A DNA stretch of 64,000 nucleotides from Mesostigma viride. Lineage: Eukaryota > Streptophyta > Mesostigmatophyceae > Mesostigmatales > Mesostigmataceae. Positions 1,178 through 62,587 of this stretch are shown here, piece after piece (the first letter of the stretch is position 1; the number at the start of each line of letters is the position of its first letter). A program made the translations under genes and the position numbers. The stretch is from positions 69,501 through 133,500 of the forward strand of contig RPFO01001922.1 of NCBI GenBank assembly GCA_009746045.1, in the 5' to 3' direction. The notes below the pieces were generated by a model that was not told the DNA's origin, searched no databases, and was given only the letters and a program-made list of their open reading frames with translations.

Positions 1178-13155
<11,978 letters not shown>

Positions 13156-29807: not shown

Positions 29808-32800
29808 ATGTCGGGCAGGAAAGGGGCAAGGCCTGCTAGCAGTATTGGACTGGGCGACGCAAAGGGGCATTTAAGCAGGCACTACATCGTTGGGCCAAGG
29901 ACAGCCCAAGCCGCTAATGGCTTAGGCAGTTTGGTAGCCGCAACGCCGCCTATCAAGCCACCTAATCCTGTCCAGAGATCCGACTCGGCCAGTTCCCCGG
30001 GGGGTGATGCTAATTCTCCTCGTCCGTCGCTGCGGAAGGCTAAGCAGCGTTTTGTATCCGCGGCACACGCGGTCCGAGGAGAAAACGCGGACGTAACCAG
30101 TGCCTCCAAGCATGCGCCTTCGGACGGACAAACGCCCGGAGAAGGAGCCGGGGGCACGTCTCAAGGCCACGCATCAGACGGCATGGTCCCGTTGTCAGGC
30201 ATGCAGCGTGACTCCGTCTTCCAGGCCGCCACCGCGGTCCTGCAAGCGCAGGCAGTCGCGAACAAGGCAGCCAACGAAGGCTTGGACGAGTTCCACCCCG
30301 AGTTCATCGCGGCGGAGGCAAAGAAAACGATGGCCTCCCTCATCGAGCAGCACAGCGCCAGGACCGAGCAGCGCAATCCGGTCCGTGGATGGAAAGAATG
30401 TGTGCGACGCTCGCCTTCTGTCTCTTTGGCCACGTCAAGAACCGTTTTCTCGTGCCTTCATGTTTTCACTTGCCAAAGAAATAGCATAGACCCACAGTAT
30501 AATGACACAATTGCGTTGGGGAACCGCAGGGGTGGTTGGTGTGGTTACAATCCCTCCCCTCCCTCCCCTCCCTCCCCTCCCTCCCCTCCCTCCCCTCCCT
30601 CCCTCCCTCCCCCTCCCTCCCTCCCTCCCTCCCTCCTCCCTCCCTCCCCTCCCTCCCTCCCCTCCCTCCCTCCCTCCCCTCCCTCCCTCCCTCCCCTCCC
30701 TCCCTCCCTCCCCTCCCTCCCTCCCTCCCCTCCCTCCCTCCCTCCCCTCCCTCCCCTCCCTCCCTCCCTCCCCTCCCTCCCCTCCCTCCCCTCCCTCCCC
30801 TCCCTCCCCTCCCTCCCTCCCTCCCCTCCCTCCCCTCCCTCCCTCCCTCCCCTCCCTCCCTCCCTCCCCTCCCTCCCCTCCCTCCCCTCCCTCCCCTCCC
30901 TCCCTCCCTCCCCTCCCTCCCCTCCCTCCCCTCCCTCCCCTCCCTCCCTCCCTCCCCTCCCTCCCCTCCCTCCCTCCTCCCTCCCCTCCCTCCCCTCCCT
31001 CCCTCCCTCCCCTCCCTCCCCTCCCTCCCCTCCCTCCCTCCCTCCCCTCCCTCCCCTCCCTCCCCTCCCTCCCCTCCCTCCCCTCCTCCCTCTCCCTCCC
31101 TCCCCTCCTCCCTCCCTCCCCTCCCCTCCCTCCCTCCCCTCCCTCCCCTCCCTCCCCTCCCTCCTCCCTCCCCTCCCTCCCTCCCCCCCTCCCTCCCCCC
31201 TCCCTCCCTCCCTCCCCTCCCTCCCCTCCCTCCTCCCTCCCCTCCCTCCCTCCCTCCCCTCCCTCCCCTCCCTCCCTCCTCCCCTCCTCCCTCCCTCCCC
31301 TCCCTCCCCTCCCTCCCCTCCCTCCCCTCCCTCCCTCCCTCCCCTCCCTCCCCTCCCTCCCCTCCCTCCCCTCCCTCCCTCCCTCCCTCCCTCCCTCCCT
31401 CCCCTCCCTCCCTCCCTCCCCTCCCTCCCCTCCTCCCTCCCTCCCCTCCCTCCCTCCTCCCCTCCCTCCCCTCCCTCCCCTCTCCCGGCACTGTAATCCT
31501 GGTGTATGAGTGGCCCTTTGAAGTAACCCCTGAAATTGTTTCTTGAAGAGTTTATAAACGAAGTCCTTGAATAACCTGTTGAACAACCCCTTGATCAGCC
31601 CATGGAATAACCCCTGGATGAGTCTCTGAGTAACCTCCTGAATTCGCCCTTTTATAGCCGCTTCAAAACGTCGTGAGTAGCAGCCCTTGAATAGCCCCTT
31701 ACATGTCCCCTCTAATAGCTGATGGAGAGCAACCTCGAGGGCGTACTTACCCTCTTAAATAACCTCCTAAAGATCCCCTTATGTAAGTTATTTGGATTAC
31801 CCCCAAACACTGGCGGGAGAGCGACCTCAAGGGCTTGCTTACCCCTTATTTCACTTTTGAAATCCACCACAAACCCTAAACCCTAAACAGCGGAAGAGCG
31901 ACCTCAAGGGCTGAACCCCTGCAATAACCCTCACTTGCCCCCATCAACGGCCCTCTGATCGATGCCTTAAACCACAGCTGGAGAGCGACCTCCTCTTGTA
32001 GTGGCACCTTGCAATAACCGTTTGCTTAGCCCCTTTGAAGATTCCCTTAATAATCTCTTGAATAATCCCTCAGATAACCCCCTTGAACCGCGGCTTGAGA
32101 GTGACCTCAAAGGGCTTACTTACCTCATCAGATAATCTCTTCAGTAACCCTTATGTAACTTCCTGTGTGAACCTTCGAGCCACAGCTGGACAGCGGCCTC
32201 AAGGAGTGGCCCCCGGCCGTAACCCCTTACTTACCTACCCCCTTCAAAATGCCTTCAACCCCCCCACACACACACACAATTCACTAGCTGGAGAGCGACC
32301 TCAAGGGCTGGCTCAAGAACGTGCGCTCGCGCGCAGATCCCTGGGCGGAGGCACGCCGCGTGCAAGGGGACTTGGTGGATGATGACGATGCGGCACTGGG
32401 TGATGAGGACGATGAACCATGTGAGTGTGTTGTTATACTAGACTGGTGTAGGCCTGTTGTTCCGGAAAAAGGTGCTAGGGGACATGGTGGACTGGCGAGC
32501 CATGTGAGTGTCTGGTTACTATGGTCTGTTATTCTGGTATGTTGTTATTATAGTCATTTATTCTGGTATATTGTTATTATAGTCAGTTATACTGGTGTAG
32601 GCTTGCTGTGCTAGAACACTCTTACTGTACTCGACTAAGGGGACTTGGTGCGTACGATGGTGCCGCGCTGGGTGATGAAAATTATGAACCATGTGAGTTA
32701 CTGTATGTACTATCTTGTTATTATAGTACTGTACTAGAGCAAGGCGGGAGGCATCCTGGTCGAGGAGGAGGAGGAGGAGGAGGAGGAGGAGGAGGAGGAG

Positions 32801-35800
32801 GAGGAGGAGGAGGAGGAGGAGGAGGAGGAGGAGGAGGAGGAGGAGGAGGAGGAGGAGGAGGAGGAGGAGGATGCGCTGGGTGATGACGACGAGGATGCGA
32901 CTGTGGATGATGAGTTGTTGATGATACCTTGGCTGCTGAGAAAACGTTGCGCTGTACTGGAACCACAGACCTTGTGATTTACTAGTAGAGAGGCAATGCT
33001 GTGGCGCTTGATGATGACGGGGACGACGCACAGCCCGCTCCGATCCCCCACTCCCCACCCCATCCCCATGTCTGCGCTCGGATCCTTCTTTACATCGCTC
33101 TGCACGTATGCGACATTGGAACCGTTCCCGTCCCCAAGCCCCTCATAACTCTGTGCAAAGTAGAATATGTATCGATCTATGTAGATATAATGCATATCGA
33201 TCTATATGATGTACATCATGGCTTGAAGAGCTTCCCCTGTACACTCTGCCCCTTACTGCTCGCCGCCCGCCCCGCCCCTGACCAATGTCATCACCGTCAT
33301 TATAGTTTTCAATCCAAGTTCTAAATTGAGTTCATCACTATCGTTTCTAAACGTGTGTCCCCCTTCTCTCCCTTGCTGCTGCTTGCAGCCGGCCCCGCTG
33401 CTGGAAGTGCCGCCTCCTAACCTTCAAACCTTGGATGTTTGCTGCACGCGTGCATGTGCTTGTCGGGCCGCTTGTGTGTGCCCGGGATGGCTGGAATGAT
33501 GGTTTCATTTCTTTCCGTCGGTGTGGCTGCTGCACACATGCACATGTGCCTTCCGACGGATTTTCCTGTTGCTTGCAGCCGGACCCGCGGTGATGTCCAT
33601 GGGTGGTTGCTCTTTGAATAGTCGTCCCGATGATATTTACACGAATGTGCCTCCCTTCACCTTGCGCCGTCGTTCTTGCTTGCAGCCGGCCCCACGGTGG
33701 AGGTGCCATCCATGCCGGGTAGCCACGACTTGCGCTTTGACCTGGATGGCGACGCGGGTGGGCACGGGGCCAATCCGTGGCAGAAGGCCCGTTTTCTCAT
33801 GAAGCGGCAGAGGTGAGGGGGAGAATTCATAGGGGCAGGATAAATAGGGTAAGCAGTGATTCGATTATGGTTTTTGCACCGCGCCGCATGTGCCATATTG
33901 AAGATGAAAAGTCGGAAACTAGCTTTGCCTCGTCCAGTGCGTGGCTTTTAGCCAATCGAAAATGGGCGAGCGCGTTTGGCGAGCAAACGCCACTAATCGA
34001 AACCCTGCGGGGAGGATCGAGATAAAAGGGAACTGGAACGCCTAAGAGGCCCGCTTCCTGGTAAAATGGAAGAGGTGAGGAGCAGGATGAATGGCGGGAG
34101 GATAAATGGGGGAGGAAACAGATAGTAGGGAACGGGAACAAAGCCCGCTTCCTGATACAATTTTCAAAATGAGGGGCAGGAGAGGGATGACGGGAGGATG
34201 GGTAGGGGGTGGTGTGCGTGTGGTGGCACAGGGGCAGGAGAGGAGAGGACGGGAGAGGGATGAGGAGAGGACGGGAGAGGGATGGGGAGAGGATGGGAGA
34301 GGGATGAGGAGAGGACGGGAGAGGGATGAGGAGAGGACGGGAGAGGGATGAGGAGAGGACGGGAGAGGGATGAGGAGAGGACGGGAGAGGGATGAGGAGA
34401 GGTCGGGAGAGGGATGAGGAGAGGACGGGAGAGGGATGAGGAGAGGAGAGGACGGGAGAGGGATGAGGAGAGGACGGGAGAGGGATGAGGAGAGGACGGG
34501 AGAGGGATGAGGAGAGGACGGGAGAGGGATGGGGAGAGGACGGGAGAGGGATGAGGAGAGGACGGGAGAGGGATGAGGAGAGGACGGGAGAGGGATGAGG
34601 AGAGGACGGGAGAGGGATGAGGAGAGGTCGGGAGAGGGATGAGGAGAGGACGGGAGAGGGATGAGGAGAGGAGAGGACGGGAGAGGGATGAGGAGAGGAC
34701 GGGAGAGGGATGAGGAGAGGATGGGAGAGGGATGAGGAGAGGATGGGAGAGGGATGAGGAGAGAATGGGTAGGGGGTGGTGTGCGTGTGGTGGCACAGGG
34801 GCAGGAGAGGGATGACGGGAGAGGGATGAGGAGAGGATGGGAGAGGAATGAGGAGAGGACGGGAGAGGGATGAGGAGAGGATGGGTAGGGGGTGGTGTGC
34901 GTGTGGTGGCACAGGGGCAGGAGAGGAGAGGACGGGAGGATGGGTAGGGGGGTGGTGAAAATAACAGAGACAAGGCGTGGGCTGTGAAGTGGGTTGTGAA
35001 GGCATGGTGAAGACCCTAACCCAACCGCCGCCGCCCCGCCCTCATATCTCACGCCAACAGCGTCATCAGGCGCTGATGGAGGGCTCCAACCCTCGTGCTC
35101 TTGGTCTGTTGCCTGCCCCCTCTTCCCTTGCTTGCGCCTCCAATCCTCTCATCCTGCCGTAGCCAAACAACAAATTGTAAACTAAATGCTGCCGACTGGT
35201 GTGTATGTTTGGCATCCCTCGCGTGGCCAAGGCGCTGATGGAGAGGACACCCACGCTCTAAACCGCTCCTCTGGTCTGCCACTTATCTGCCCGTGGTCTT
35301 CAAAGAATTCGGTTCTGTCACCCTGCCCGAACATATACATTTCCCACCACTGGCGTGGTCAAGGCGCTAGAGAACCTGTTGGCTGCCCCTTCCCTTCCTC
35401 TCTGCCCCCTTGTCTGCCGTCGCCTTCCTTTCTGCCCCTAATGCTCGCCGTCACCACCATGGCCATCGCGCACATGGAAGGCCGACCCACCATTTTGTGC
35501 CCCCTAATGCTTGCCACCACCACGGTGGTCGACGCGCGGATGGCAGGCTGACCCACCTCATAGTGCCCTGGGTCTGTCGTTGGCCTTTCCTTCACTCCTT
35601 CCCCCCCCCCCCCCCCCCCCACACACATGTATATTTCTTGTGTTTTCATGTATTTATTTGTTTCTCACGTGGCCAGCGTGGTCAAGGCGCTGATGGAGGG
35701 CTCCAACGCGCGCAAGCCCAGCAGCAACCGCGCGGACATCCTGTGGGCGCAGACCGTGAGCAACGTCTCGCAGGAGACGAGCGCCAGCGTCAAGGGGCGG

Positions 35801-38800
35801 GTCATGACGACCGTGCAGCAGCACATGGACAAGCTCAAGAAGGGTGGGTGCGACTGCTCCGCACGTAGTTCTTGGTGCTTGTTACCGGTTGTCGATCGTG
35901 ATGACGACCGTGCAGCAGCACATGGACAAGCTCAAGAAGGGTGGGTGCGACTGCTCCGCACGTAGTTCTTGGTGCTTGTTACCGGATGTCGATCGTGATG
36001 ACGACCGTGCAGCAGCACATGGACAAGCGCAAGAAGGGTGGGTGCGACCACGATGCACGCGGCAAAGGTGGCTGCCTGACATTTTTCTAGGCCTGCAGGT
36101 ACCCGTACCTTTGCAAGTGTAAAGTGGCAAAGGTGGTTGACTTGATTTTTGCAGTGCTGGTACCTATGACTCCGTGTCCCTCCCTCCGTATTTTTCCCTT
36201 TGTCTTTGTTACTGGTTCCTTGTAACGGGTATTCCCTTTTCTCTGTCTTGTTTATTTTGCTGTTGTGCTTGTTACTGGTTGTCGAGTGTGATGACCGCCG
36301 TGCAGTAGCATATGGAGCAGCTCAAGGATGGTGGGTGCTCGAGCATGTCAACTCCGTATTTTCCTATGCCGTCTTTCAAACTGTATTTTCACTGTGTTTG
36401 TGCGTGTTCGGCATGTGATGATGACCGTTCAGCAAACCATGGTGCGGCTATATATTGAAATGGGGGCTCCACCGCCCGACATCCGGAGTCTCCCCCTCTC
36501 CCCCTCGCCCCCTCTCCCCCTCTCCCCCTCTCCCCCTCTCCCCTCGCCCCTCTCCCCTCTCCCCTCTCCCCTCTCCCCCTCTCCCCTCTCCCCTCTCCCC
36601 CTCGCCCCTCTCCCCTCTCCCCCTCTCCCCTCTCCCCCTCTCCCCTCTCCCCTCTCCCCTCTCTCCCCCTCTCCCCTCTCCCCCTCTCCCCTCTCCCCCT
36701 CTCCCCCTCTCCCCCTCTCCCCCTCTCCCTCTCCCCTCTCCCCTCTCCCCTCTCCCCTCTCCCCTCTCCCCCTCTCCCCTCTCCCCCTCTCCCCCTCTCC
36801 CCTCTCCCCCTCTCCCCCTCTCCCCCTCCCCCTCTCCCCCTCTCCCCTCTCCCCCCCTCTCCCCTCTCCCCCTCTCCCCTCTCCCCCTCTCCCCCTCCCC
36901 CCTCCCCCTTCCCCCTTCCCCTCTCCCCTCTCCCCCTCTCCCCTCTCCCCCTCTCCCCTCTCCCCCTCTCCCCTCTCCCCTCTCCCCCTCTCCCCCTCTC
37001 CCCCTCCCCCTCCCCTCTCCCCTCTCCCCTCTCCCCCTCTCCCCCTCTCCCCTCTCCCCCTCTCCCCCTCTCCCCTCTCCCCCTCTCCCCTCTCCCCTCT
37101 CCCCTCTCCCCCTCTCCCCCTCTCCCCCTCTCCCCCTCTCCCCCTCTCCCCTCTCCCCCTCTCCCCCTCTCCCCCTCCCCCTCTCCCCCTCTCCCCCTCT
37201 CCCCTCTCCCCCTCTCCCCTCTCCCCCTCTCCCCTCTCCCCCTCTCCCCCTCTCCCCCTCTCGCCCGCCCTCTCGCCCTCTCACACCTCGCCCTCTCGCC
37301 CTCTCTCGCCCTCCAGCCCTGTCTATTTCTCTTGATTCTCCAGGCAGAACCTCCCTGGAAATGTAGATCGAGTGTTATTACCCTTGTCACATGAACCCTG
37401 TCGTATTTTAGTCCATGGTGACTTACCCTGGGCCCGCTGGGTAGTTCTCGCGGACCAATCTCCTGGCGAAGGTTCTAGATCGGTCCATGCACAGCTTCAC
37501 CCCATGTGCAGTCCCGCAGGAGAGGTTGTCCCAGTCTATCTAGCAGATGTTCAACCGTTGCACTCTCTGACGGCTTATTTTGAATTCTTCATACTGCAGT
37601 ATTGACCTCGCGAGCATAGACTAGCAGCGCATCTACACAAATTTTTATGTGCGTTTTTTTTTTTCCAACTTTTTATGTATTCAAATATGTATGTGCTTTT
37701 CTGTGGAACAAGTGCATGTTTGATTATGGCAGACCTCGAAGGCCTATTTGATGCTTGCTCTTGCCTATAAACTGGTGTTTACTGTGTATGTATCATCCCT
37801 GATGTGATGGGTCATACTGTGTTTGACCCTTGCAGGCATGGAGGAGCAGTACAACAAGCAAATGTTTGACCGTGGTCTCGCGCTGGTGATGGCGCGCACA
37901 CGCGTGCGCAAGCTGCTGGCCCAGAAACAGCACGTGCGGGTGAGGGGGACATGCTGTCTGGTTCCTTGCCGTGTGGGAGGGTAGGCGATAGAGCCTACGG
38001 TATGCATAAGGTGTGGAGGGTACTGGAGAGTTCAGGGTGGGGGGAAAGCTGTGCTTGGGGACGAAGGGCATGGACTGTGGTATGAAGGGTACGGAGAAAA
38101 GTGCAGCGTTTGTGCACTCATGCACAGAATGTTGGTCCCAAGAATGCACAAGCGGGTGAGGGCGATGCTGCAGGGCACTACAACTGCCACACCGCCCCTT
38201 CTTTTAATCGGGCAAGGAGGGATTCGAACACCTGACGCCGTGGTTCGTAGCCGCATAAAGTCCTTGTCTTCAAATACCACCCGCATTTTTGCCAGTACTC
38301 GTTTCCCATCGACCTCTTGGGTTCTTCGTTGGCTCTTTTCAGCCACTTGTTGCTATGGGCAGTCTACGTGATTATGGGTACCGTGTCACTGCCTGCCGCG
38401 TCCCCTCCCCTCCATGCCAGTACTTGCTTGCTGCGAGGGCAGCATGCATGTCTCCCTCCTTTGGGGTTTCTCCCAAGGACTCCTTTTCTCCGTTTGTGGC
38501 TTGTCGTCTCCCTACTTCCTCGTCCCTCTTTTATCGTCCCTCCCTCCTTTTTCCCGTCCGCTTCCCCCCCCCCCCCCCTTTCCTCTTCTTCTTCCCGCTT
38601 CCCTTTCCTGAGTGTGCCAGGAAATGCTGGCCGCCTTTGCGGTGCATACTTTTTTTCTTTTCTTTCATTAATTTATTTTTCTTTTGTATTACGCACTCTT
38701 TCGGTCCCTCCTCGTCCTCTGTCTCACTATCTCCTCTGCCCACCATCAGGACATGCGGGCGGCCATGCCGCACCCTGTCCTTTTCCCTTGGTCCCTTTGT

Positions 38801-41800
38801 CTGAACCGTCATTCCCTCCTGTGGCTCTCGTTGCTCCTTCCTTTGTGTCCTCCGCGTCCTCTGACCATCACAACCACCTGCCAGGAGGTGCTGGCGGCGA
38901 TGCTGGCGCGCAAGTGGCGCATCTCAGCTCGGCTGCGTGCGACGACACGAGATACTCGGGCCCGCATCGCGTCGCTGAGGGAAGCCAACAAGGACCTGAC
39001 CGCCGGTGGGTGAAGAATGAGCGTGCATGCAATACGTGCATGCAATCACCCCAAACCCTGAACCTTGAGGGGGACATGATCGCCGGTGGGTTAGAAATAG
39101 ATGGGATCGTTTCACTGCTTGGCTGCGTGAGGTCACCCTAAATTTCATTTGATTAATTTAACTAATTTATTTGAACGAGCGAGGTTTGCTGGGGCCAAGG
39201 GCGTACAATCGGCTTCGTGCTGTTGCTACCTATGCGCCCACATCGCGTCGCTGAGGGAAGCCAGCAGGACCTGACCGCGGGTGGGTGACCTATGCATGGG
39301 CATTGATAAGCTCTCAACCCTAATAAGGGCCTGACCGTCGCTGGGTTACATATACATGGACATGGATAAAGCCTAAACCTAAAAAGGACCTGACCACCGG
39401 TGGGTGAAATATACATGAGCATGGATGAAGCTTAAACCCTAGAAAGGGGTACCCTATAGTGGATTTGCTACCTGCGCTCATTAATCAATAATCGATGAAA
39501 AATCAAACATTATGAAGGAAGTTGCGAACGCCCTTTGCTGCGACAGGGCATGGGCCGAGGGTGGGTGCTTTTTGCGGTGCAACCATGCAATGATGTGTGC
39601 AGCCTGGATGGTTATACCTGTAAGTTGGGAACCCTGCACTATTGTGCATCCCTGGGTGGTGGGTGGTCACTATAATTTAGTGTGGGCAAGTGTGCACCGG
39701 CACCCGTGAGCGAACAAAACAAGGACATGTTGTCATGTGTCCACTGGCCCTTGGCAACAATGGCATGTCATGACGGTCAATAATACTGCTATGCCTCTGT
39801 CATGTTTAAGCTGCTCGCTGTCACCTGATGTCCATCTGAAAAAGGGAGAGATCTGGCTGCATGCGATAGTCAGGTCCTATATTAGTGTGCAGTAAAGGGC
39901 ACAGCATTAACCATGCATGTGCGCGAACTCCGTTCTGCTCCCTCCAGATGTCCAGCTTAAGAAAGGAGAGATCTCGCTGCTGGAGCGCGTGCTGGAGGAC
40001 GTCACGCACAAGCTGTCGACCGCGCAGGAGGCGCTGCAGCAGGAGCGGTTGCAGAGTCTGCGTGACCGGGAGGTGGGTGGGATGACAAGAAGTGATGATA
40101 GGAGGGGTGGGTGGGATAGTACACTTAACTGGTATTTGTACTAGTACATTCATAAGTGCAGGGGTTAACACTAACACAACTACTACTAGTGCTAAGAAAA
40201 CGAAAAGTTTTTTCTTTGCGGGGGGGGGGGATGAGACGCCTGTCAGTAGCAAGAGCATGCAATCAATCCACATGATGACAGGCTGGAGCGGAGTCAGGCC
40301 CAGCGATTGCCTTAATACCGTTTCATGCCTTCATGTTTTGTGCCTTACCGTATTGCTTCCTTCTCTGAACTATTATCGTTCGTTTTTTCTTGACATTCCT
40401 CTGCCTTGGCATATCTCTTCATCCATCCAGCTTTCTTCCCCGCGCTCTCCTCATTTGCACTGTCCTTCCTCCCCCCCACACACACATTTGAACAGGGCCC
40501 GGACAATGATCCACGTGTCACAACTTTCTACGCTCACCCTCTGTCCACCACCCACGCCAGCCTTCTCTCTACACTCGTGGCCGCGCTTTCTTCATTCGTT
40601 ATCCTTCATTATTCGTCCTTCATTATCGTTGTTACTGTTATTATTATCCTGTACCATCTGTTTACTATCATGACCACCAGGGCCTGGACATCCAGTTGGC
40701 CCAGGTTTTATCCGTCGTTACTATCCTCACGAGTTTCTGTCATCATCCTCGTTTCCTCTGCCGTCACGTCTTTGTGAACGTGGCCTGGGCGTCCAAGTGC
40801 AGCGATGCTCACGGTCCCCTCGACTCCCAGTGTTTATGCTCTCTTCCTTTATTTTTATCAACGCCAGGGCCTGGATGGGCAGGTGGCCCAGATGAGCGCG
40901 CAGGCAGACGAGCAGTCGCGCGAGATGGGGGCGCTCGCGTTGGGGCGCGCCGAGTTGCTGGGGACGGTGGGGCAGCTGCGGTCCTTGAGCGACGGTGCGT
41001 GGTGGTTGTATTGTATGCTATATGAGGGCTAGAGTAGTGGATATGGGATGTGCCGAATTGCTGGGGACGGCGAGGTCACCTGCAGTCTTTGAGCGACGGT
41101 GTGTGGCACTAACTCGTATGTGTAGTAGAATACCAGGAATTACTCTACTAAATGAATTGTACGCCGAGCTGCTGGGAATGGTGGGCCAGCTGCGCTAATA
41201 TGATACTGTAGTATAAGATATAATACATAATAATAGGGTTACGTGGTTTGCCTGCTGTGTATACTAGTAGATGCACAATTCCTATTTAGTGTGTGTGATC
41301 ATGACCCATGGGTTGCTGCTTGCGACAGGGGGGCAGCAGTGCTCCTTCCCTATTACTATTATACTAGTAGTAGTATTATCACAGTGTATAGTAGTAGTAT
41401 TATAGTAGTATTACTATAGTGAAAATGAAAAGGTTCAAATGCGCAGTAGAAGTATTCCTTGACTGACAGTGCGTGGCAGTTTTTCAAACTAGCGATGCGG
41501 TATAGGTAGCTGCTAGTAGCCACGCTGTTTAGTAGCTACTAGCCATGCTGTATAGTAGCTACTTGCCAACTAGCCTTGCTGCCTAGTAGTGTAAAGTTGT
41601 GTTCGCTAGCCCTTCTGTTTCGCACTTCACTTGTGTAGCCACTCTCACTTTCATAGTCATCATTCGCTGCAAGTGTCTATGGTGGCGTTGGCTTTGGTTG
41701 GACTGCGGGCCGCCGCATGTATAGGTCAGAGGTCCTGCACTCTGATCCTAGTACCTTTCAAACGGTCCTGTGGGCGGTGCTCTGAACCGCTGGCAAATGC

Positions 41801-44800
41801 CCTTTGAGCTGATGCGGTAGACGGAAGGTGTCCACGCGATCCTCTTGAAAAAAAGGTTCATTTTAAAGAAAGATTTTTTCATTGCAGCTTTCACCTGGTT
41901 TATTTAATTGCTATTCGAAACCAATTTATATATATTTATTCGAAACCGATGTATGTTGGGACGGTTTGTGCCGGCAAACGGCCATACAGAGCTGATGCGC
42001 AAGCTCGAGGGCGTCCAGTCCATGCTGCAGCGGACGGGCAGCCCCGCCAGCACGCTCACGGAGGTGGCGGATGCCAGACGGGTGGCCACAGACATCGCTT
42101 CCGTGGTGTTTTGTGAGTGGTGCCTGTAGTGTCCTGTTGTGGCATGGCCTCACGTGGGGCTACACTACGCAGTGGGTGTCCTGTTTGTGGCGCGCATGGC
42201 CTCACGTGGGGTTGCAGCGCGCATCCTGTTTGTTTGTGGCGCGCATGGCCTCACGTGGGGTTGCAGCGCGCATCCTGTTTGTTTGTGGCGCGCATGGCCT
42301 CACGTGGGGTTGCAGCGCGCATCCTGTTTGTTTGTGGCGCGCATGGCCTCACGTGGGGTTGCAGCGCGCATCCTGTTTGTTTGTGGCGCGCATGGCCTCA
42401 CGTGGGGTTGCAGCGCGCATCCTGTTTGTTTGTGGCGCGCATGGCCTCACGTGGGGTTGCAGCGCGCATCCTGTTTGTTTGTGGCGCGCATGGCCTCACG
42501 TGGGGTTGCAGCGCGCATCCTGTTTGTTTGTGGCGCGCATGGCCTCACGTGGGGTTGCAGCGCGCATCCTGTTTGTTTGTGGCGCGCATGGCCTCACGTG
42601 GGGTTGCAGCGCGCATCCTGTTTGTTTGTGGCGCGCATGGCCTCACGTGGGGTTGCAGCGCGCATCCTGTTTGTTTGTGGCGCGCATGGCCTCACGTGGG
42701 GTTGCAGCGCGCATCCTGTTTGTTTGTGGCGCGCATGGCCTCACGTGGGGTTGCAGCGCGCATCCTGTTTGTTTGTGGCGCGCATGGCCTCACGTGGGGT
42801 TGCAGCGCGCATCCTGTTTGTTTGTGGCGCGCATGGCCTCACGTGGGGTTGCAGCGCGCATCCTGTTTGTGGCGCGCATGGCCTCACGTGGGGTTGCAGC
42901 GCGCATCCTGTTTGTGGCGCGCATGGCCTCACGTGGGGTTGCAGCGCGCATCCTGTTTGTGGCGCGCATGGCCTCACGTGGGGTTGCAGCGCGCATCCTG
43001 TTTGTTTGTGGCGCGCATGGCCTCACGTGGGGTTGCAGCGCGCATCCTGTTTGTTTGTGGCGCGCATGGCCTCACGTGGGGTTGCAGCGCGCATCCTGTT
43101 TGTTTGTGGCGCGCATGGCCTCACGTGGGGTTGCAGCGCGCATCCTGTTTGTGGCGCGCATGGCCTCACGTGGGGTTTTAAGAGTGATCGGAAGAGGCTG
43201 AGTCCTAGGGTTTCGTGGGTGCGGCAGCGTGCGCGTGCTGGTACCATGGATAGTGTGCAAGTGTACCCATGTGTGCATGCATGGTCACTATAGTGTAGTT
43301 TAGTGTGTGTGTGTGTGCGCGCATGGCATCAAGGTGTGCGCGGTCTTCCCCTGTGTGTTGTGCGCGCATGTATGGTGCCCCTTGGAACATTGAGGACTCA
43401 GGTGCATGTGTTTGTGATGGATGAGGGCAGTCACGGGGTCATCTGTCATTTAGTTATCTTAGGGCACCCGCTCGTTATTTCTCATACCTCCTTGCACCTG
43501 TGTTGTTTCGGTTTCCCGGTTTCTCCTCCTTGTCTTAGATGCAATACTTCGTGGAATCATTCACCCTGGATCGTCGCGTGCGCCGCAAGAGCATAGATAT
43601 TGAAAATCGCAGCCATGTGGTATATATACCTTTCCACCACTGAACTAAAATTACTCATCCTTGTGTGTCGTCCACACCGCAGCCACGGCGTCCTCGGGCG
43701 CGTCGGGCGGCGAGTGGGGCCGCGTGCGGGACCAGGTGGAGAAGGAGCGGGGGGCGCGCCAGCCGGCGCTCTCCCTGGCGTCCGAGAAGGCAGCCGCGCA
43801 GGTGATGTTTCTGGCAAGCAGTTCTACTAGTACAGTGTGCAGCTTGCAAGTCATGGAAACAAGCGAGCAAAGAATATTCGCGATATGCCACGAGACTTCT
43901 CTAGCTGATTGCTAGCAAAAGCGGCCCAGATGCTCGATTCTTCTCCTAATTTCTTCATCATGTAATACCAGTTGAATAAAGACCCTCGGCCAACCTGCTT
44001 TGTCCATGGTATAAACACAAAAGGTATCAGCACAGTCATCGCTGAAGAAACCTGTCTACTCCCCCCCCTCGCCCACGCGCCCCCCCCCTGGTACCCCACA
44101 GGCCCCTGCGACGGCGCCGGTGGCAGCCACACCCTCCCGACCGGTACCTGCGACGGCCGATGCCCCAACAGGACAGGGCAGGGAGTCAATATCCGCCGCC
44201 GCTGCCCCCAAGAACGCAGCACCCCCCATTCCTGGCAATGCACCGGAAGCCACGGCGTCCGGCGCCGCACAAGTCAGAATCATGGGTGGGTCAGGACCTG
44301 GCAACACGGTGCCACAGGGCTCGGCATCCGCAGCTCTCGGAGAGGTGCCAGCAGCAGGTGCGTCCCTTCCCCCAGTGGGAGCCGGGGCTGTGGGAGCGGG
44401 GGTAGGGGTTGCGGCAGCTCCTCAAGTGGCGGATGCCAGCTCGACGGGGCACCGGTCATCGGTGGGGGCGGACGGTCGACCCCCGGTCCCTCCCAGGGGG
44501 ATGGCAGAGCGCGAAGGGGGGGGCGGCGCGGCCGGTGGGTTGCATCGGTGGGGTCGTTGGGAAGGGGGTCATCGTCACAGGATTCGGACCGTTTGGAGGT
44601 CGGGAGTTTGTGGCTGCTTTTTACGCGGGATAATCGGCTGATTTATGTGTCACACATGCCTTCTGTATGTCGCCCGTGCAGGGATGCGGTGCCCGTGCAG
44701 GGATGTGGTGACATGGGCACTATCATATCTTCAACCTGCTTGTCTGCAACCTGCTTGTCCGCAACCTGCTTGTCTGCAACCTGCTTGTCTGCAACCTGCT

Positions 44801-47800
44801 TGTCTGCTTCTCGCCCCGGTCTCGCTTACTCTCCCACTCCCGCTCCCACTCGGTTGCTGCTTGTCCCTTTGTAGCGCCAATCCCTCTCTGCCCTTGCCTC
44901 ACCCGTCCAGGCACAGCACTTGCCCTGTCCTGTCACAGCACTTGTCCCACACTTGCACCGCACTGGTCCTGGCCTGGCCTGGCACTGCTATTTCTTTATG
45001 ATGCTAGCCTACTCTAGTTAATGTCGGCACTCTCCTTTATCGTTCCTTATCTCGCAATCTTCTCACGTTATTCTCCTTTCTGCGTGCTCCCTTCTCACCA
45101 CACCCCGCGCGGTCCTCCCCCAGCCACGTTCCCTTGTTACTTAATTAAATAATAGACACGTTCCCTTGTTACTTAATTAAATAATAGACACGTTCCCTTG
45201 TTACTTAATTAAATAATAGACACGTTCCCTTGTTGCTTAATTAAATAATAGAAACGTTCCCTTGTTACTTACTGCCCATCATGTCTGGCCTCGCTTCCTG
45301 CTCATCTGGCCTTGCCACTTGCTCTCGATTCTGTGCCTTGTCTTTTTCCTTTGTTTACTTTTTGTTTGGTTGTGCCCTTCTCCAACTGCCACCACTCCAG
45401 CAAGATCACCTCCGGCTACCGACAGCAACCACCCCGGCCATGTGTCCGCCGACAACGCGGCAGCCATGGCCGCTTCTCACCCTCCAGAGACGAGACCAGA
45501 GACGAGCAATGAGCGGGATCCCCCTGCAATGGTGCTCCGGGTGCCATCGTTCACCGTCAAGCCGCCCATCCCCGCCACCAATGCCGTCACCTCCAGTCCT
45601 CCAGCCGTGGGGCGAGGGAGAGAGGAAGCCGCCGCGTCCGCCGCCACCACAGCAGCGACAACCGCAGCGGATCCCAGTAGGCTCGAGGGTGCCCTCTCTA
45701 CTGCCCTGCGGGAAGGTAACCCCGAGGGGGCAGGCGTCTCATCATCAACACCGTCAAGAAGGCCATCCTTCAGCAGGACATCCGCTCAACACAGGGCTGC
45801 TCCGCCATCATCCGCGTTGGCGTCCAGTACTGCGGCTGCCGAAGCAGTCACGACGGTCGTAAGCTCATCCGGGGCAGCGACTTCCCACGTCGACCCTGCC
45901 ATGAGTACAAGAGATGCGACAAGCGGGGTGAGAGCCGGCAAGGCGGCAGACGCTGGGCCCAACGCCGCTGCGATGATGCCCGCGGATACATCAGCGGTCC
46001 CCCCCGAGGCGCCAGGTCGCAGCGGTCTTGGCGCCAGCCAAGCAGCGCCGCAGCGCCGGCCAAGCGGGATACTGCCGTCATCGGGGAGGCAGTCGCTCTC
46101 TTCGTCCTTGGACAACTCATCATCATCATCTGTAACTGCAGGATCGGCGGCAGTCGCGGCGGGCAATCTTTCTCCAAGCCCATCGCCAGGGGGGGAACTG
46201 GCTAACTCTCAGCTTCAGGCAGCAGCGGCAAGCAGGCAAGGGAAGGAACGGATGGACCACCAAGGGAAAGAGAGGGTTGAGATGAATGCGGTTCCGTCCA
46301 CCGTCACCAGGGCCCCTGCGAGTGCCGTGCTCCCTCCCGCGTCACCCAGCGTGGCGGAGAACGGCCCGTTAGAAACCCCCGGTGCTGGCCCCGCGAGCAG
46401 GTGGGCATGGCAGACCGATGGCCAGGTGGGGTCGCCATCGCATCCAGGCGGCGCTGCATACTCGGGGAGGGAGCTACAGCTTATGGAGAGAGTCTCTCAG
46501 GATGTGGGCACGGGTGGTGACTTCTTGCATTCGGATGATATGGACGGGGGTCGTCGGGAGAGGGGGGTACATGGGGGCGCGTCTGCAAGCATTATCGATG
46601 AGGCGAACGTGCCTGGTGAAAGGATGACGGATGCCAGAATGATGGCCAATGGTGATGGCATCTTGGGCTCGGCACCGGCTCGTCCCATCGGCGCCTCAGA
46701 CTCCGCATTTGCGGGGGTGAACCAGGAATTGCGCACCGATGCTGTCGGTTCTGGCGCGTCTGTAACAGATGCAGGTAGCGGTGGCGGCGGGGCAGGGGCG
46801 GCGGGACAGATGGAGAAACATGGGGGGGTTATAGACGCAGCCGATGGTCAATCCGCACCAGGGAACTCATTGGTGGGTGCTAGTAGGGTAACGACGCAGA
46901 CGGGGGATCCAATGGGGCTTATCGCCGGTGGGGAAATGGGCAAGGGGCAGGGAAAGGGCGGCTTGAGGGAATCTGCGGCGGCGGTCGGCATGACTCTGCC
47001 CCCGGGGGCCGAGCCCTCGATGCGGTCCCTAATCCTGCCCGGATCTGCAGCGGGGGATGGGCAACCCCGCAAGGGCACCAATGGGGATGTGCTGGCGCGT
47101 AATGGTCGGAACAATCTGTCCTCTACCTCGCTGGCGGGCACCCCTGGTGGGTCCCCTGCCCCCCCGAGCAGCCCTGGGGGCGTGGCCTCGATCGCCAGTT
47201 CTAAACATAGCGGGGGTACCCTGATGGCGTCGCGCTCGAGGGAGGATGGGGCGTCCACGCCGGATGGTGGGTCCCCTATGTATACCTATGAATTGTACAC
47301 CGATGAAATGTATATAACCTATGAAAATGATACCTAATTAATATATATACCTATGAAACAGATACCTATGAAACGCATACCTATGAAATAGATACCCATG
47401 AAATAGATACCTGTGAAATAGATACGTGGGAAATAGATACCTGTGAAATAGATACCTGTGAAATATATGCCTAAGAGCTAGATATTTAAGAAATAGATAC
47501 ATATGAAGTATACGCCTATGTAGTTCTTTGACGTTGTGAGTTACTAGACGGTGTAGTTATATTTGCTTTTCTAGAAATCAAGCAAAATGGCTGGCTTGCG
47601 AGGAAGCATTGCCTAGAGGTTGGGATAGTGATCCTTGCGTGTGCTTGTTGACTAGGTTGATTATGCAGCCACGAGACGTCTTCAGTTACTCCAAGACATA
47701 TGGCACGAAACCAGTCTCCACCCTCATTATAACAGGGTTACCCACTTTCCAGCCTTGACCACTATTTACCCTCGTCCACTTCTTACCCTCATCCACTCCT

Positions 47801-47952
47801 TACCTATACCCTTGACCACTATCCACCCTTGTCCACTCTTCACCCCCGTCATTTCATCCTACTCCGCATGCAGCAACGCAAAGCGCAAGCTGGTTGTCCC
47901 ATTGACACCGTTGCATGAGATGGCACACGACCACCCACAACCCTCATACATG

Positions 47953-47988
<36 letters not shown>

Positions 47989-50900
47989 CATTACTCAGAA
48001 AACAGATGGCATAAAGTCATTTTCTACTCTCGTCATTTCGCCCTTACCCACTTAACTTTCTGCGTCACGTCACCCTTGTCCAACTGCAGCATCGAGAAGT
48101 GCGCGACGCATCGCCAGCGACAGCACCTCCAGCAAGCTGCCTACCAGCATGCTCGCCCTCACCGACCTCTACGCGGACCTCATAGCCCGCCTGCCCTCCT
48201 CCGTCACCTGCCAGCGATGCGCCACCGCCGTGCCCCTCGCCAATGTGTTCTCCCCTATGGGTTCCTTGCCGCCGTATGTGGTACCCTCCATCATCCCACA
48301 GTCATCAACCTCTGGAGGAGGAGGAGGATCGGGCTCGGATAATACCAGTCAGAACAGTAACGGCAGTGCTTATTATAATAACCCTAACAACCCCGCATTC
48401 TTTTCTTCTTCGTCGTTGTCCATGCCAGCGATCCAGGGTCCTGGGTCCGGCACATCCACCCCAGGGTACCCTGCGATAGCCAGTGAGCACTCCTCGGCCA
48501 GCTCACCAAAACATCGGCCGCACACGGGAGGACGCGTGACCGGTGCGCCGATTCTAGCATCCCCGCCGACCTCCGCCCGCAAGCCCACGTCCATCAGCGG
48601 TGGTGGGTTCGTCGCCAGTTATTCCACCGCCGGGGCTAATGCCAGCGGGGCCGCAAGCTCCCAAAGACCCCGTGCTAACGCTACTGCCGCCAGCGGAGGC
48701 ACCACGGTCATCGTGGGCGTGCCAAGTGGCGGCGCGGCGACGGTCCAGGAGGCGGAGCGCGACGGCTCAGGTCGCTATAACACTGGCGACCATGGAAATG
48801 CCCTTCTCGCCTCTGGGGCTGGCGGTGGCTCTTCTGGCATCCGGCGCCCGATGAGCGCCTACGTGGCGACAGATGTCGGCGTGCGGGCGTACCAAGGGCT
48901 CAGCCCCAACGCGGTGTTAGGGCTGGGGTCGCTGGCAGGGTTGTCGACAGGGGGAGGGGGGGAGGGGGAGCTATCCAGGGGGGGAAACAGGGACGGCGCC
49001 GGGGTGATGGTGTATGGGGGGGACCGGGGCGGGGGGGGGGGGGGGGCAGCAACCCACGAGCCCAGATGGTGGGGGGGCGTCGCGGTTGGGTGCGCCCAAG
49101 CCCCTGTCGCTGCAGTCACCTAGGTAATGGGTAGTGTACTTTTATGGTTGTATTCCGTGCATGCTACCTGATGTGTGCATGGATGGATAATGTACTTGTA
49201 CAGCGGACTTGTACAGCGGACTTGTACAGCGGACTTGTACAGCGGACTTGTACAGCGTACTTGTACAGCGTACTTGTACAGCGTACTTGTACAGCGTACT
49301 TGTACAGCGTACTTGTATAGCGTACTTGTACAGCGTACTTGTATAGCGTACTTGTACAGCGTACTTGTACAGTGTACTTGTATAGTTTACTTGTATAGCG
49401 TGCTTGTATAGTGGACTTGATAGGTGGGTCATGCCGTTGGTTGTTTGGTTGGGTCACAAGAGTGGGTCGGTGAAGGGCAATGCTTCCCCAGGTGTGCATA
49501 CATGATGTCCTTGATAAGTGCATGAACTCCTGCAGTGGGTTGCTCGGTTGCATGCATGGATTCCATGCATTGATGGATGGACTTATGCATGGATGCATGC
49601 ATGACCTTCTGAGGTGTCGCCATGGCAAGCAGCACATAGTAAAACTAGATGCTGCTAACCTGCCCTGGTACGCTGGGATGGTTGCTGGTTGGTTTGTTGG
49701 GGATGGTAGGTTCAAAAGACCTTCGATTGACGTGGCTCCACCCGCCAACGCATGTGCATGGATCGAAAATCTACATGGATGGATGTTAGGTATATCAAGC
49801 GGGTGCAGTGCTTGTTTGGAGTGGGCGTTATAGAAGGTTGTCCTGGGTGGTTCCCCATTGGGGGGTAGCTTCCCCAGGTAGGTAGGCATGGATGGATGAG
49901 CTCCTTGTTGTGTAGGACAGTGTATACAGTTGGGTGTTTACTCGGGATAATGGCATAGGTCCACCAGGTACGTGCCCGTGTTCGGCCCGATGCCTTGTCG
50001 ATCTAAACCAACAGTTTAGGGCCTAGCGTTTGGGGTTTGGGGTTTGGGGTTTGGGGTTTGGGGTTTGGGGTTTGGGGTTTGGGGTTTGGGGTTTGGGGTT
50101 TGGGGTTTAGGGTTTATCACATCAACAGTATGCTCGACAGATTGAGGATCTGAATCAGCTGTATGGACACAGCTGAAGACGAGAATGGGATGACAGCATG
50201 ACAAATAGGTTGTAGAAGTAACATGCAAAGTACGTAGGGGACCACAGGACCTAAGCTCTTGGATGCTAATGTTACCAAACTTTCGAAGCATGCCACAGCT
50301 TTTCAACGCACGAAGTAGTTAGGTGGCGGTTGGGTTCCAGACATATTGCGACAAACGTGGATACGATCACCAGCAGGCTCGACCTACCATGGTCCGGATT
50401 CTCCAGAATTCTGGCCCGCGCCGGTTGTCTAGTTGTCATGCTTTTGTCGTGCTAACTAACGTTGTGTATGTTGTATATGAGATTAGCAGACTATTCTGTG
50501 CTATGCCCTCGCACACGCCACACGAGTTCTTACTTATTGTCAACGAACTCAGGACTGCTGAAGTTTGCAGTTCTAGTGCGTTTAATAATGCTCATGTTTG
50601 TGATGCTAATGCTTTTTGTAATGTGCTTCTTGTTGCTCCTTGTTCCGGCTTGCCCCTTGCCATGAAACCAACGGTCACCCCAACTACCAATTATCACAAC
50701 ACCGACCATCTCCGTGAATGCAATGGCAACTGGGCTGGCATGGCAACCGCCGGGGCATCGCCAGGGGTAGCGCGCGGGCGTCATCTGCGGCGCCAGCACG
50801 TGAAGTCCGCGACATGTTCCTGTACGAGAAGGACCCCTGGATGGCGTTCAAGGGAGGGCCGCTGCAGCCCAAGCCCCCGCCCACGCAGCCGCCCCCGGTG

Positions 50901-51131
50901 CCCGGGATGAGGGAGCAAGCGGTGGCCTATTATAACTATGTCATGGAGGCCGCCGAGAACAAGCAAGCGGGAAGTGGGGCTGTCCCAGGCGGTGACCCGG
51001 GGGGCGGGGACATTGTTTTGTCTCCGAGGCCCCCGCCGGGGTATTATGCGGATGGGGATTGGTCGGTCGTGAGCGGCAAGTCGGCATCACCGGCGGGTCG
51101 GACCGTCGGAAAGCCAACGAAAGCTAACTAG
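29808..51131 (+). CDS. Large coiled-coil protein of unknown function (14 exons, about 1805 aa)
   Basis: Exons: 29808-30380, 32288-32420, 33686-33812, 35677-35843, 37836-37939, 38885-39005, 39948-40072, 40868-40994, 41990-42112, 43683-43801, 44102-44534, 45401-47266, 48090-49123, 50765-51131. Every junction keeps phase if one surplus G is assumed in the G run at about 49029-49044; without that, exon 13 stops at 49121-49123. Residues 1-190 are Ser/Ala-rich. About 190-280 hold an acidic stretch ([16 protein letters not shown]) and [13 protein letters not shown]. About 280-535 are strongly helical and coiled-coil ([34 protein letters not shown]). About 575-1350 are low-complexity Ala/Pro/Ser/Gly. 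Exon 13 holds [18 protein letters not shown] with a CxxC pair, and the C-terminus has [16 protein letters not shown] do not recognise the family. A structural or scaffold role is only a guess. Confidence 0.7.
30547..31488. repeat. Polypyrimidine (CCCT)n/(CCCTC)n tract of about 940 bp in intron 1
   Basis: Essentially only C and T on the coding strand for some 940 bp, in alternating CCCT and CCCTC units. Because the units lack stops, all frames on both strands appear open, and none is coding. The tract could form H-DNA or, on the opposite strand, G-quadruplexes. Confidence 0.95.
31716..32287 (+). repeat. Array of about six upstream echoes of exon 2 start
   Basis: The exon 2 start (CTGGAGAGCGACCTCAAGGG at 32288) is preceded by degenerate copies at about 31722, 31809, 31887, 31977, 32086 and 32176, each followed by a GC(T)TACTTACC- or ACCCCT-like filler. 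Spacing is roughly 80-110 bp. Some copies keep an AG in front (CACAG-CTGGA). Confidence 0.85.
32668..32900 (+). repeat. Downstream echoes of exon 2 end with (GGA)n expansion
   Basis: The exon 2 end (GCACTGGGTGATGAGGACGA followed by TGAACCAT and GTGAGT) recurs at about 32672-32700 with an intact ATGAACCATGTGAGT. It recurs again at about 32872-32893 after about 108 bp of pure GGA repeats (32763-32871). In frame the GGA tract would encode poly-Glu, but no splice phase requires it. Confidence 0.8.
33372..33610 (+). repeat. Upstream echoes of exon 3 acceptor and start
   Basis: The true acceptor region (CTTGCTTGCAGCCGGCCCC at 33676-33694) is preceded by GCTTGCAGCCGGCCCC at about 33384-33399 and GCTTGCAGCCGGACCC at about 33571-33586. 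Both keep a perfect TTGCAG acceptor. Confidence 0.85.
34046..34180 (+). repeat. Downstream echoes of exon 3 end and donor
   Basis: AGGCCCGTTTTCTCATGAAG followed by CGGCAGAGGTGAG is echoed at about 34048-34082 (GGCCCGCTTCCTGG...GAAGAGGTGAG) and again, weaker, at about 34143-34175. Confidence 0.75.
34228..34960. repeat. Minisatellite GAGGAGAGGACGGGAGAGGG, purine-rich, about 730 bp
   Basis: Unit of about 21-22 bp with recurring variants (GACGGG, GATGGG, GTCGGG). A longer block with GGTGGTGTGCGTGTGGTGGC appears at about 34205, 34780 and 34890, giving a higher-order pattern. Opposite-strand ORFs of up to 392 codons here are repeat artefacts. Confidence 0.9.
35053..35376 (+). repeat. Three upstream echoes of exon 4 start
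   Basis: The exon 4 start (GTGGTCAAGGCGCTGATGGA at 35678) is echoed at about 35060-35092 (GGCGCTGATGGAGGGCTCCA), 35222-35245 (GTGGCCAAGGCGCTGATGGA) and 35356-35372 (GTGGTCAAGGCGCTAGA). Confidence 0.85.
35844..36450 (+). repeat. Four downstream echoes of exon 4 end and donor
   Basis: ATGACGACCGTGCAGCAGCA...AAGAAGG plus GTGGGTGCGAC is repeated almost exactly at about 35899-35953 and 35998-36045. Weaker copies lie at about 36289-36338 (with a stop codon) and 36419-36445. The first two keep perfect donors; using them would lengthen exon 4. Confidence 0.9.
36487..37262. repeat. (CCCCTCT)n polypyrimidine tract of about 775 bp in intron 4
   Basis: Alternating CCCCTCT and CCCCCTCT units, almost pure C/T on the coding strand. 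ORFs of more than 300 codons on both strands are artefacts. Confidence 0.95.
38209..38283 (-). pseudogene. Decayed tRNA-Arg(ACG)-like sequence, plastid type
   Basis: On the minus strand, 75 nt with acceptor ends that pair (CGGGTGG with TTGCCCG, using G-T pairs) and a 7-nt anticodon loop CTACGAA with anticodon ACG (plus-strand CGT at 38246-38248). The 3' half (GGCTACGAACCACGG, TTCGAATCCCTCC) matches the plastid trnR-ACG consensus as I know it. The D-arm and two T-stem pairs are broken, so I call it a pseudo-tRNA, perhaps nuclear plastid DNA. It lies in intron 5 of the large gene. Confidence 0.5.
39060..39415 (+). repeat. Four downstream echoes of exon 6 end and donor
   Basis: The exon 6 end (AAGGACCTGACCGCCG plus GTGGGTGA) is echoed at about 39071-39092, 39240-39290 (a long copy including CATCGCGTCGCTGAGGGAAG), 39326-39346 and 39384-39408. 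Each copy has a GTGGGT-like donor or a one-base variant. Confidence 0.85.
39826..39872 (+). repeat. Upstream echo of exon 7 start
   Basis: GATGTCCATCTGAAAAAGGG plus AGAGATCT echoes the exon 7 start ATGTCCAGCTTAAGAAAGGA plus GAGATCT, about 118 bp upstream of it. Confidence 0.8.
40679..40712 (+). repeat. Upstream echo of exon 8 acceptor and start
   Basis: CCAGGGCCTGGACATCCAGT plus TGGCCCAG mirrors the true acceptor and exon 8 start CCAGGGCCTGGATGGGCAGG plus TGGCCCAG at 40864. The copy keeps its AG. Confidence 0.8.
41040..41200 (+). repeat. Two downstream echoes of exon 8 end and donor
   Basis: The exon 8 segment GCCGAGTTGCTGGGGACGGT...TTGAGCGACG plus GTGCGTGG recurs at about 41053-41106 (TTTGAGCGACGGTGTGTGG) and in part at about 41162-41197 (GCCGAGCTGCTGGGAATGGT). 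Confidence 0.85.
42150..43185. repeat. 49-bp minisatellite, about 21 copies, in intron 9
   Basis: The unit contains GGCGCGCATGGCCTCACGTG, GGGTTGCAGCGCGCATCC and TGTTTGTTTGT. Four copies lack one TGTT (45 bp). Copies are nearly identical. The unit has no stop codon in any plus frame, hence three overlapping spurious ORFs of 354-384 codons. The first, diverged unit starts 40 bp after the exon 9 donor. Confidence 0.95.
44728..44815. repeat. 15-bp tandem repeat (CAACCTGCTTGTCTG), about 5-6 copies
   Basis: Short minisatellite in intron 11 of the large gene. Confidence 0.85.
45125..45272. repeat. 32-bp tandem repeat, about 4.6 copies, in intron 11
   Basis: Copies starting at 45125, 45157, 45189, 45221 and 45253 contain CACGTTCCCTTGTTACTTAA and TTAAATAATAGA. 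Confidence 0.9.
47280..47520. repeat. 15-16-bp degenerate repeat (ACCTATGAAATAGAT) in intron 12
   Basis: About 14 diverged copies begin 14 bp after the exon 12 donor at 47266. They make the exon ORF appear to run on to 47337, but the spliced frame leaves at 47266. Confidence 0.8.
47869..47902 (+). repeat. Upstream echo of exon 13 acceptor and start
   Basis: TGCAGCAACGCAAAGCGCAA echoes the real TGCAGCATCGAGAAGTGCGC at 48085. An acceptor-like TGCAG is kept, but splicing there leads to a stop. Confidence 0.6.
49190..49425. repeat. 13-bp minisatellite (ACTTGTACAGCGT/G), about 17 copies
   Basis: Intron 13 of the large gene, with CGG- and CGT-type variant units clustered separately. The rest of intron 13 (49426-50764) shows only the telomere-like repeat at 50022 and the MITE-1 end at 50383. 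Confidence 0.9.
50022..50117. repeat. Interstitial telomere-like heptamers (TTTGGGG)n ending in TTTAGGGTTTA
   Basis: About 11 units of GTTTGGG, with two TTTAGGG-type units at the end. TTTAGGG is the telomere repeat of plants and many algae, and the G-for-A change is uniform. Confidence 0.8.
50383..50437 (-). mobile_element. MITE-1 end fragment in intron 13
   Basis: Reverse orientation of the MITE-1 terminus (TACCATGGTCCGGATTCTCC, then GGCCCGCGCCGGTTGTCT). Confidence 0.65.
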
Positions 51132-59238: not shown

Positions 59239-59244
59239 CATATA

Positions 59245-62477: not shown

Positions 62478-62587
62478 CCGCGACCGCAGCGCGTTGGGGG
62501 GCTGCCGCCCCCCAAACCCCCCGCGTGGGGGGCTCCGCCCCCCACACCCCCCGCCCCCCCCCTCGGTGGCTGCCACGCCTGCCCTGA

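Follow-up and report, generated by a model that had tools for sequence, protein, structure and literature searches.

Copies of exon edges in the adjoining introns of two Mesostigma viride genes

The introns of two genes in a 64,000-nucleotide stretch of Mesostigma viride DNA (contig RPFO01001922.1, positions 69,501 to 133,500 of the forward strand; hereafter the window) contain degenerate copies of the edges of the exons that they adjoin. The copies are in direct orientation, cross the splice junction and lie on the matching side, copies of exon starts being found upstream and copies of exon ends downstream. Probably, these echoes are the remains of short head-to-tail duplications that crossed a splice junction and were tolerated since the protein was unchanged. 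Our confidence is not higher because of two best matches located in mid-exon and because of a mismatch in the repeat families internal to the introns, both described below.

The two genes and the copies of their exon edges

The sample consisted of the two genes of this one window, A and B, with 23 introns and 46 junctions. A Pfam ENTH domain was found in gene A (E=3.6e-45), which is therefore called epsin-like. The gene models are:

1178..13155, + strand: gene A, ENTH/epsin-like, 11 exons, single open frame, 589 aa
+ strand, gene A exons 1-6: 1178-1218, 1848-1964, 3477-3555, 4641-4724, 5445-5590, 6244-6353
+ strand, gene A exons 7-11: 6906-7068, 9262-9435, 11003-11633, 12314-12419, 13037-13155
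29808..51130, + strand: gene B, 14 exons, from reading frame and GT..AG sites; last junction uncertain
+ strand, gene B exons 1-5: 29808-30380, 32288-32420, 33686-33812, 35677-35843, 37836-37939
+ strand, gene B exons 6-10: 38885-39005, 39948-40072, 40868-40994, 41990-42112, 43683-43801
+ strand, gene B exons 11-14: 44102-44534, 45401-47266, 48090-49123, 50765-51130

Exons 1-10 of gene B form a single open frame, which yielded no Pfam match, and exons 11 and 12 extend the same frame. Reading of the frame showed that exon 13 meets a TAG at its proposed donor, so that exon 14, which is in a different frame, has no in-frame join. A run of 16 Gs at 49031-49046, within exon 13, may cause this break; it could be polymorphic or reflect an error in homopolymer length. 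For exon 1 the proposed donor, GTCCGT, is a weak guess. The junction search revealed no echo at these uncertain junctions (exon 1 donor, exon 13/14).

Among seven further open frames scanned for families, three were above the cut-off (F-box/LRR, reverse transcriptase and RING) and four, one being gene B exon 12, had no family above it. The F-box/LRR frame (598 aa, 26237-28033, minus strand) is apparently without introns; the reverse transcriptase (RVT_1, 6.8e-11) and RING finger frames lie at 53484-57331 on the minus strand, and fragments resembling them, read by eye, occur on the opposite strand near 59240-59640. No relatives of the ENTH part or of the reverse transcriptase were found in viral contigs, nor a relative of one exon among plasmids; Rfam (gathering threshold) and tRNA scans were empty. 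The window also carries several arrays: long C/T-rich arrays (TCCC and TCTCCCCC type) at 30551-31482 and 36489-37305, in gene B introns 1 and 4; soon after gene B exon 9, some 20 copies (98%) of a 49-bp unit at 42182-43177, only weakly similar to the end of that exon (best score 83); GTTTGGG followed by TTTAGGG repeats at 50028-50115 in gene B intron 13, which we take to be telomere-like; and a 170-bp satellite-like tandem array at 60374-62479 (12.4 copies, 99%).

Each junction was represented by a query of 50 exon and 30 intron bases and searched in the adjoining intron, scores of at least 100 being called strong. Strong copies were obtained for 18 of the 46 junctions, versus 0 of 46 in reverse-complemented introns and 0 of 42 in wrong-side introns (Fisher 1.3e-6), in agreement with the matching-side rule proposed in the first-pass annotation of this DNA. 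Shuffled controls, which that annotation had suggested, gave the same answer for the junctions of these two genes: 42 of 1840 dinucleotide-shuffled queries reached 100, a mean of 1.05 per 46 junctions. At a score of at least 120 the real junctions gave 17 of 46 and the shuffled queries 3 of 1840; at 80 or more, the counts were 26 of 46 for real junctions, 5 of 46 for reverse complements and 2 of 42 for wrong-side introns. These data confirm that exon-edge copies in the adjoining introns are real. The pattern had been described for the 14-exon gene B, where it is indeed present (13 of 26 junctions with strong echoes), but it extends to gene A (5 of 20). The copies are:

31723..31742, +: gene B exon 2 start, copy 1 of 6; exon-query match
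31799..31841, +: gene B exon 2 start, copy 2 of 6, AG changed to GG; score 143
31891..31943, +: gene B exon 2 start, copy 3 of 6, AG retained; exon-query match
31978..31992, +: gene B exon 2 start, copy 4 of 6, AG retained; exon-query match
32094..32122, +: gene B exon 2 start, copy 5 of 6, AG changed to GG; exon-query match
32186..32220, +: gene B exon 2 start, copy 6 of 6, AG retained; exon-query match
32644..32720, +: gene B exon 2 end and donor; score 191
33358..33411, +: gene B exon 3 start with intron flank, AG retained; score 134
33563..33600, +: gene B exon 3 start, second copy; family member
34045..34104, +: gene B exon 3 end and donor; score 147 (2 of 21 other introns score as high with an exon-only query)
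35045..35095, +: gene B exon 4 start, AG retained; score 165
35222..35266, +: gene B exon 4 start, AG changed to CG; exon-query match
35354..35368, +: gene B exon 4 start, AG changed to GG; exon-query match
35525..35549, +: gene B exon 4 start, weak, AG changed to AC; exon-query match
35898..35970, +: gene B exon 4 end and donor, 97-bp tandem unit; score 356 (TRF 35804-36048, 98%)
35995..36037, +: gene B exon 4 end, tandem copy 2; TRF and exon-query match
36284..36330, +: gene B exon 4 end, copy 3, more diverged; exon-query match
36410..36442, +: gene B exon 4 end, partial copy 4, without junction; exon-query match
37589..37646, +: gene B exon 5 start, AG changed to GA; score 122
38115..38174, +: gene B exon 5 end and donor; score 124
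39209..39303, +: gene B exon 6 end and donor, the longest (105 of 121 exon bases aligned); score 242
39316..39340, +: gene B exon 6 end, GT changed to CT; exon-query match
39376..39399, +: gene B exon 6 end, GT retained; exon-query match
39811..39866, +: gene B exon 7 start, AG changed to TG; score 144
40661..40706, +: gene B exon 8 start, AG retained; score 122
41050..41106, +: gene B exon 8 end and donor; score 199
41162..41196, +: gene B exon 8 end, copy 2, without junction; exon-query match
41789..41843, +: gene B exon 9 start, AG changed to TG; score 113 (1 of 21 other introns scores as high with an exon-only query)
3567..3618, +: gene A exon 3 end and donor, 47-bp tandem unit; score 233 (TRF 3520-3616, 96%)
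4433..4502, +: gene A exon 4 start with intron flank, AG changed to AT; score 268
4579..4600, +: gene A exon 4 start, weaker second copy; score 71
4805..4879, +: gene A exon 4 end and donor; score 154
9474..9538, +: gene A exon 8 end and donor; score 130
12478..12529, +: gene A exon 10 end and donor; score 134

Upstream of gene B exons, the first-pass annotation had counted about six copies for exon 2, two for exon 3, three for exon 4 and one each for exons 7, 8 and 13. Six were found for exon 2, two for exon 3 (the second merely as a family member), four for exon 4 and one for each of exons 7 and 8; the exon 13 copy, with a score of 94, is within chance. Downstream, a single clear copy was found for exon 2, where two had been claimed (the other is short of the junction, and further matches fall in a GAG array), and likewise for exon 3, the second of its two not being clear. 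The four claimed for exon 4 are three and a partial one; for exon 6, also credited with four, three are clear and one is weak, and an extra family member lies at 39053-39111; both copies of the exon 8 end were present, with a weak third. The copies on both sides of gene B exon 5, upstream of exon 9 and in gene A had been overlooked.

The specificity of the matches was also assessed with exon bases alone. With 40 exon bases as query, scores reached 200 in matching-side introns and were at most 65 on the wrong side and 70 for reverse complements. In other introns these 40-base edges scored at most 77, except the starts of gene A exon 9 (103) and gene B exon 9 (88). For two edges of gene B, the end of exon 3 and the start of exon 9, such exon-only queries did at least as well in some other introns, and both edges owe their place in the strong set to the intron bases added to the query. 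When low-complexity tiles were left out (41 of the 46 edges remaining), 40-bp exon tiles scored at least 75 in the adjoining intron in 14 of 41 cases at the edge, 5 of 38 at 20 bp, 1 of 24 at 40 bp, 0 of 13 at 60 bp and 0 in all deeper bins; the deeper tiles come from longer exons, mostly also without an edge echo, which makes those at 40-60 bp the more suitable control. In these two genes, edge copies thus outnumber copies of exon interiors, a comparison on which the first-pass annotation had staked its reading.

That the matches reflect chance and low-complexity sequence has a negligible probability. This reading does apply to many faint matches: 80-bp exon queries at a score of 65 gave 58 matches on the matching side versus 26 in reverse complements and 23 on the wrong side, so that many weak matches are noise and the weakest listed copies, such as that of exon 13, are unsupported. 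At a score of at least 100, however, both controls were empty, and the shuffles gave about one junction in 46. Chance is therefore refuted for the strong set and may account for single weak copies.

Structure, decay and proposed origin of the copies

All 18 best copies cross the junction, with 22-50 exon and 8-30 intron bases aligned; as 50 and 30 bases are the query maximum, the alignment spans are bounded there. Insertion of processed RNA was rejected as a source, since it would bring no intron sequence and all 18 best copies include intron bases. With whole exons as query, no copy of an entire exon with both splice sites was found among the 18 junctions, the largest (gene B exon 6) having the 105 of 121 bases listed above. 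In this search two of the 18 junctions, those at the end of gene A exon 8 and of gene B exon 3, had their best match in mid-exon, and the best match of the gene B exon 5 start stopped 11 bases before the junction.

The two youngest copies are contiguous tandem repeats, of 47 bp (96%) and 97 bp (98%) as delimited by TRF; head-to-tail contiguity is seen for these two, and the older copies are heavily decayed. Over the 18 copies, identity was 554/674 (0.82) for exon-derived parts and 226/321 (0.70) for intron parts beyond the splice site, both figures being somewhat high as they come from local alignments. The intron identity is close to the square of the exon identity (0.704 found versus 0.822 squared = 0.676), as expected if the exon is held fixed, so that exon-derived parts diverge on one branch and intron parts on two. 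The same divergence bears on an assembly or sequencing artefact, which we judge highly improbable. Sequence errors are possible in gene B, where exon 13 with its 16-G run lacks an in-frame join to exon 14. However, divergence from the exon amounts to 5-32% of bases in most of the 18 best copies and frequently includes indels, unlike an assembly duplication, and only the 47-bp and 97-bp repeats are near-identical to their source.

Under the proposed origin, a short unit of roughly 50-200 bp would be duplicated head-to-tail across a splice junction. If the unit spanned a donor, the first copy would still end the exon and the second, with exon end and donor, would fall in the intron; if it spanned an acceptor, the last copy would still begin the exon and the earlier one would lie upstream. 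The protein would be unchanged solely if the exon-side site stayed in use, and selection would then keep the event; duplications within exons would alter the protein and be removed. Copies would thereby be forced to the matching side and the intron would lengthen. With the exon held constant by selection and the intron copy decaying, old events would be left as isolated exon edges. The matching-side rule would thus require no special mechanism, because selection on the protein would account for it. The first-pass annotation had proposed just such repeated tandem duplication over splice junctions with the exon-side site kept, and the direct orientation, the crossing of the junction and the contiguity of the two youngest copies bear it out; duplications of this kind would therefore make introns grow. 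We infer the unit size of the older events, the mechanism (replication slippage or unequal exchange) and the filtering by selection.

Splice junctions and intron interiors as sites of duplication

Junctions could be preferred sites of duplication, through breaks, R-loops or repair, with introns growing mainly from their ends; we regard this as rather unlikely. Direct local duplication is frequent in the introns: outside large arrays, and with exon-edge copies included, 198 of 875 intron 40-mers had a direct copy within 1 kb at a score of 75, versus 21 of 875 for inverted copies. In three intergenic stretches taken as transposon-free (13160-14600, 28050-29760 and 51140-52950) such copies are about nine times rarer (6 of 238 40-mers). 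Pseudo-junctions placed within introns gave copies at a score of 100 at a frequency of 0.213 (n=1354; 0.178 of 1002 outside arrays), versus 0.391 for real junctions; detection alone is expected to give about a two-fold excess, since on the exon side change accumulates along a single branch. Flat 40-mer self-similarity with distance from the junction was discarded as evidence against a focus, many of the windows having proved to be members of exon-edge families. Clustering yielded 19 families with a junction and 25 without; the routine used for the simulation gave 26 internal families in 26.1 kb.

Forward simulations assumed uniform tandem duplication in random introns, with protected exons, balancing deletions and hand-set parameters. 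Over nine uniform settings, junction families arose at 21-71% of junctions, the real share being 18-19 of 46, but settings that match this share tend to overproduce internal families (1.2-1.8 per kb at modest rates versus the real 26 in 26.1 kb). With real intron lengths and the same routine, seven uniform settings gave means of 11-14 junction hits per 46 versus 18 found; the probability of at least 18 was 0.01-0.14 over these settings, whose coverage was 0.34-0.52 (real, 0.35), and 0-0.06 for draws with coverage 0.30-0.42.

The discrepancy is larger in gene B introns 1-9, where junction families occur at 14 of 18 junctions versus 5 internal families (13 and 6 by the simulation's routine). The 13 junctions compare with simulated means of 4.5-5.7 (P<=0.0005 under all seven uniform settings), and a uniform process fits at a very high rate alone, at which coverage is about 0.8 versus the real 0.41. 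Purely uniform duplication may therefore fall short in these introns. A six-fold enrichment on junctions gave at least 14 of 18 at coverage of at most 0.55 in 58% of draws, whereas four uniform settings gave no such draw. However, (i) these introns were picked post hoc, after the data had been seen; (ii) a uniform process at a low rate accounts for gene A together with gene B introns 10-13, where 20 families are internal and 5 of 28 junctions have one; (iii) the six-fold model also misses the low internal count (P=0.0024 for at least 14 junctions with at most 5 internal families); (iv) the internal count is depressed in gene B introns, whose large arrays were either merged or discarded for low complexity; and (v) an exon copy diverges from its source half as fast as two intron copies do from each other, by itself easing its detection. 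Overall, the junction excess is mild, and that of gene B introns 1-9 is strong but post hoc. It thus seems doubtful that duplications are several-fold denser on junctions than in interiors and that exon edges seed intron growth in this lineage; if they did, every intron would be a dated growth record, read against an unchanging exon.

Copied splice sites and comparison with known systems

The copied sites might act in splicing as decoys or alternative sites under selection, a role suggested by the first-pass annotation that we find very unlikely. By weight matrix, 14 junction-reaching donor copies resemble real donors (mean 8.30 versus 8.55 bits; background GT, -0.35), and 16 acceptor-side copies averaged 1.07 bits versus 3.44 for real acceptors. 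In the best copy per junction, GT was kept at 10 of 10 donors and AG at 3 of 8 acceptors (Fisher 0.0065), and GT within the exon parts of the same donor copies survived in 10 of 19. Best-copy counts are, however, biased toward copies with a surviving site. When copies were chosen without the six site-adjacent exon bases (the 18 junctions at a score of at least 100 only, 2 of 28 matches being too far from the junction to read), GT was kept in 13 of 18 and AG in 4 of 8 (Fisher 0.38), versus neutral expectations of 11.8 and 5.5. The donor/acceptor asymmetry, 10 of 10 versus 3 of 8, or 13 of 16 versus 6 of 16 with two doubtful rows included, was discarded, having vanished with this less biased choice. 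If used, none of the 14 copied donors and none of the 16 copied acceptors (0 of 30 in all) would give a frame-neutral, stop-free product. Matches scoring below 68 or ending more than one base from the junction were omitted from the frame, weight-matrix and 16-row site counts, and the weak gene B exon 9 end and exon 10 end copies from the frame and weight-matrix counts. A splicing role is thus not supported, survival fitting the neutral expectation in the least biased count, though not in the best-copy count, and we do not claim selection on the copied sites. For gene finders the copies call for caution, as junction-reaching copied donors score like true ones.

Three known arrangements were set aside. 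NAGNAG and GYNGYN tandem splice sites need a second site a few bases off, and the 30 junction-reaching copies lie 47-616 bp from the real site. Tandem exon duplication, as in mutually exclusive exons, would leave whole-exon copies, of which the 18 junctions have none. Introner elements do not fit the two genes, whose exon edges match strongly in the adjoining intron and not in the other introns of these two genes. Intronic minisatellites are direct tandem arrays with decaying units. The echoes resemble them in this respect, but one end of the array is here an exon edge, apparently held constant by selection.

The first-pass annotation knew of no standard name for the pattern. This is partly right: among the matches listed, no paper describes systematic exon-edge copies in introns. 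However, boundary-crossing tandem duplication is in print (PMC4974935), and intron gain by tandem duplication is a standard model, reviewed in PMC3443670, in which an exonic AGGT is duplicated. As in that model, duplication and splicing conceal the extra copy from the protein; unlike there, where the exonic AGGT gives rise to a new intron, the unit here contains an existing splice site, and the copies sit inside introns possessing splice sites of their own. In Drosophila, tandem duplication and intron sliding are described (PMC2891723). There too, local duplications around introns are tolerated as splicing restores the coding sequence; those introns are new or moved, whereas here copies accumulate within the intron.

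According to PMC4974935, the sources of new intron DNA are seldom identified. In the two genes studied here the source is still visible at roughly two-fifths of the junctions. Provided that the ancestral unit survives almost intact in the exon edge, an echo would time the turnover of introns inside a single genome as a one-branch clock, and echo counts would measure intron lengthening. Two features of junction-spanning tandem duplication are present: copies are direct and local (0 of 46 in reverse complement at a score of at least 100), and exon and intron sequence are joined in the copied unit in 18 of 18. The potato RdRp gene (PMC4974935) offers a parallel, a tandem genomic duplication over an intron-exon boundary by which a new intron was formed. 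As in potato, the duplications described here span the boundary and copy the splice signals along; unlike in potato, where one gene acquired a new intron, they have left copies within introns already present, and have done so at 18 of 46 junctions.
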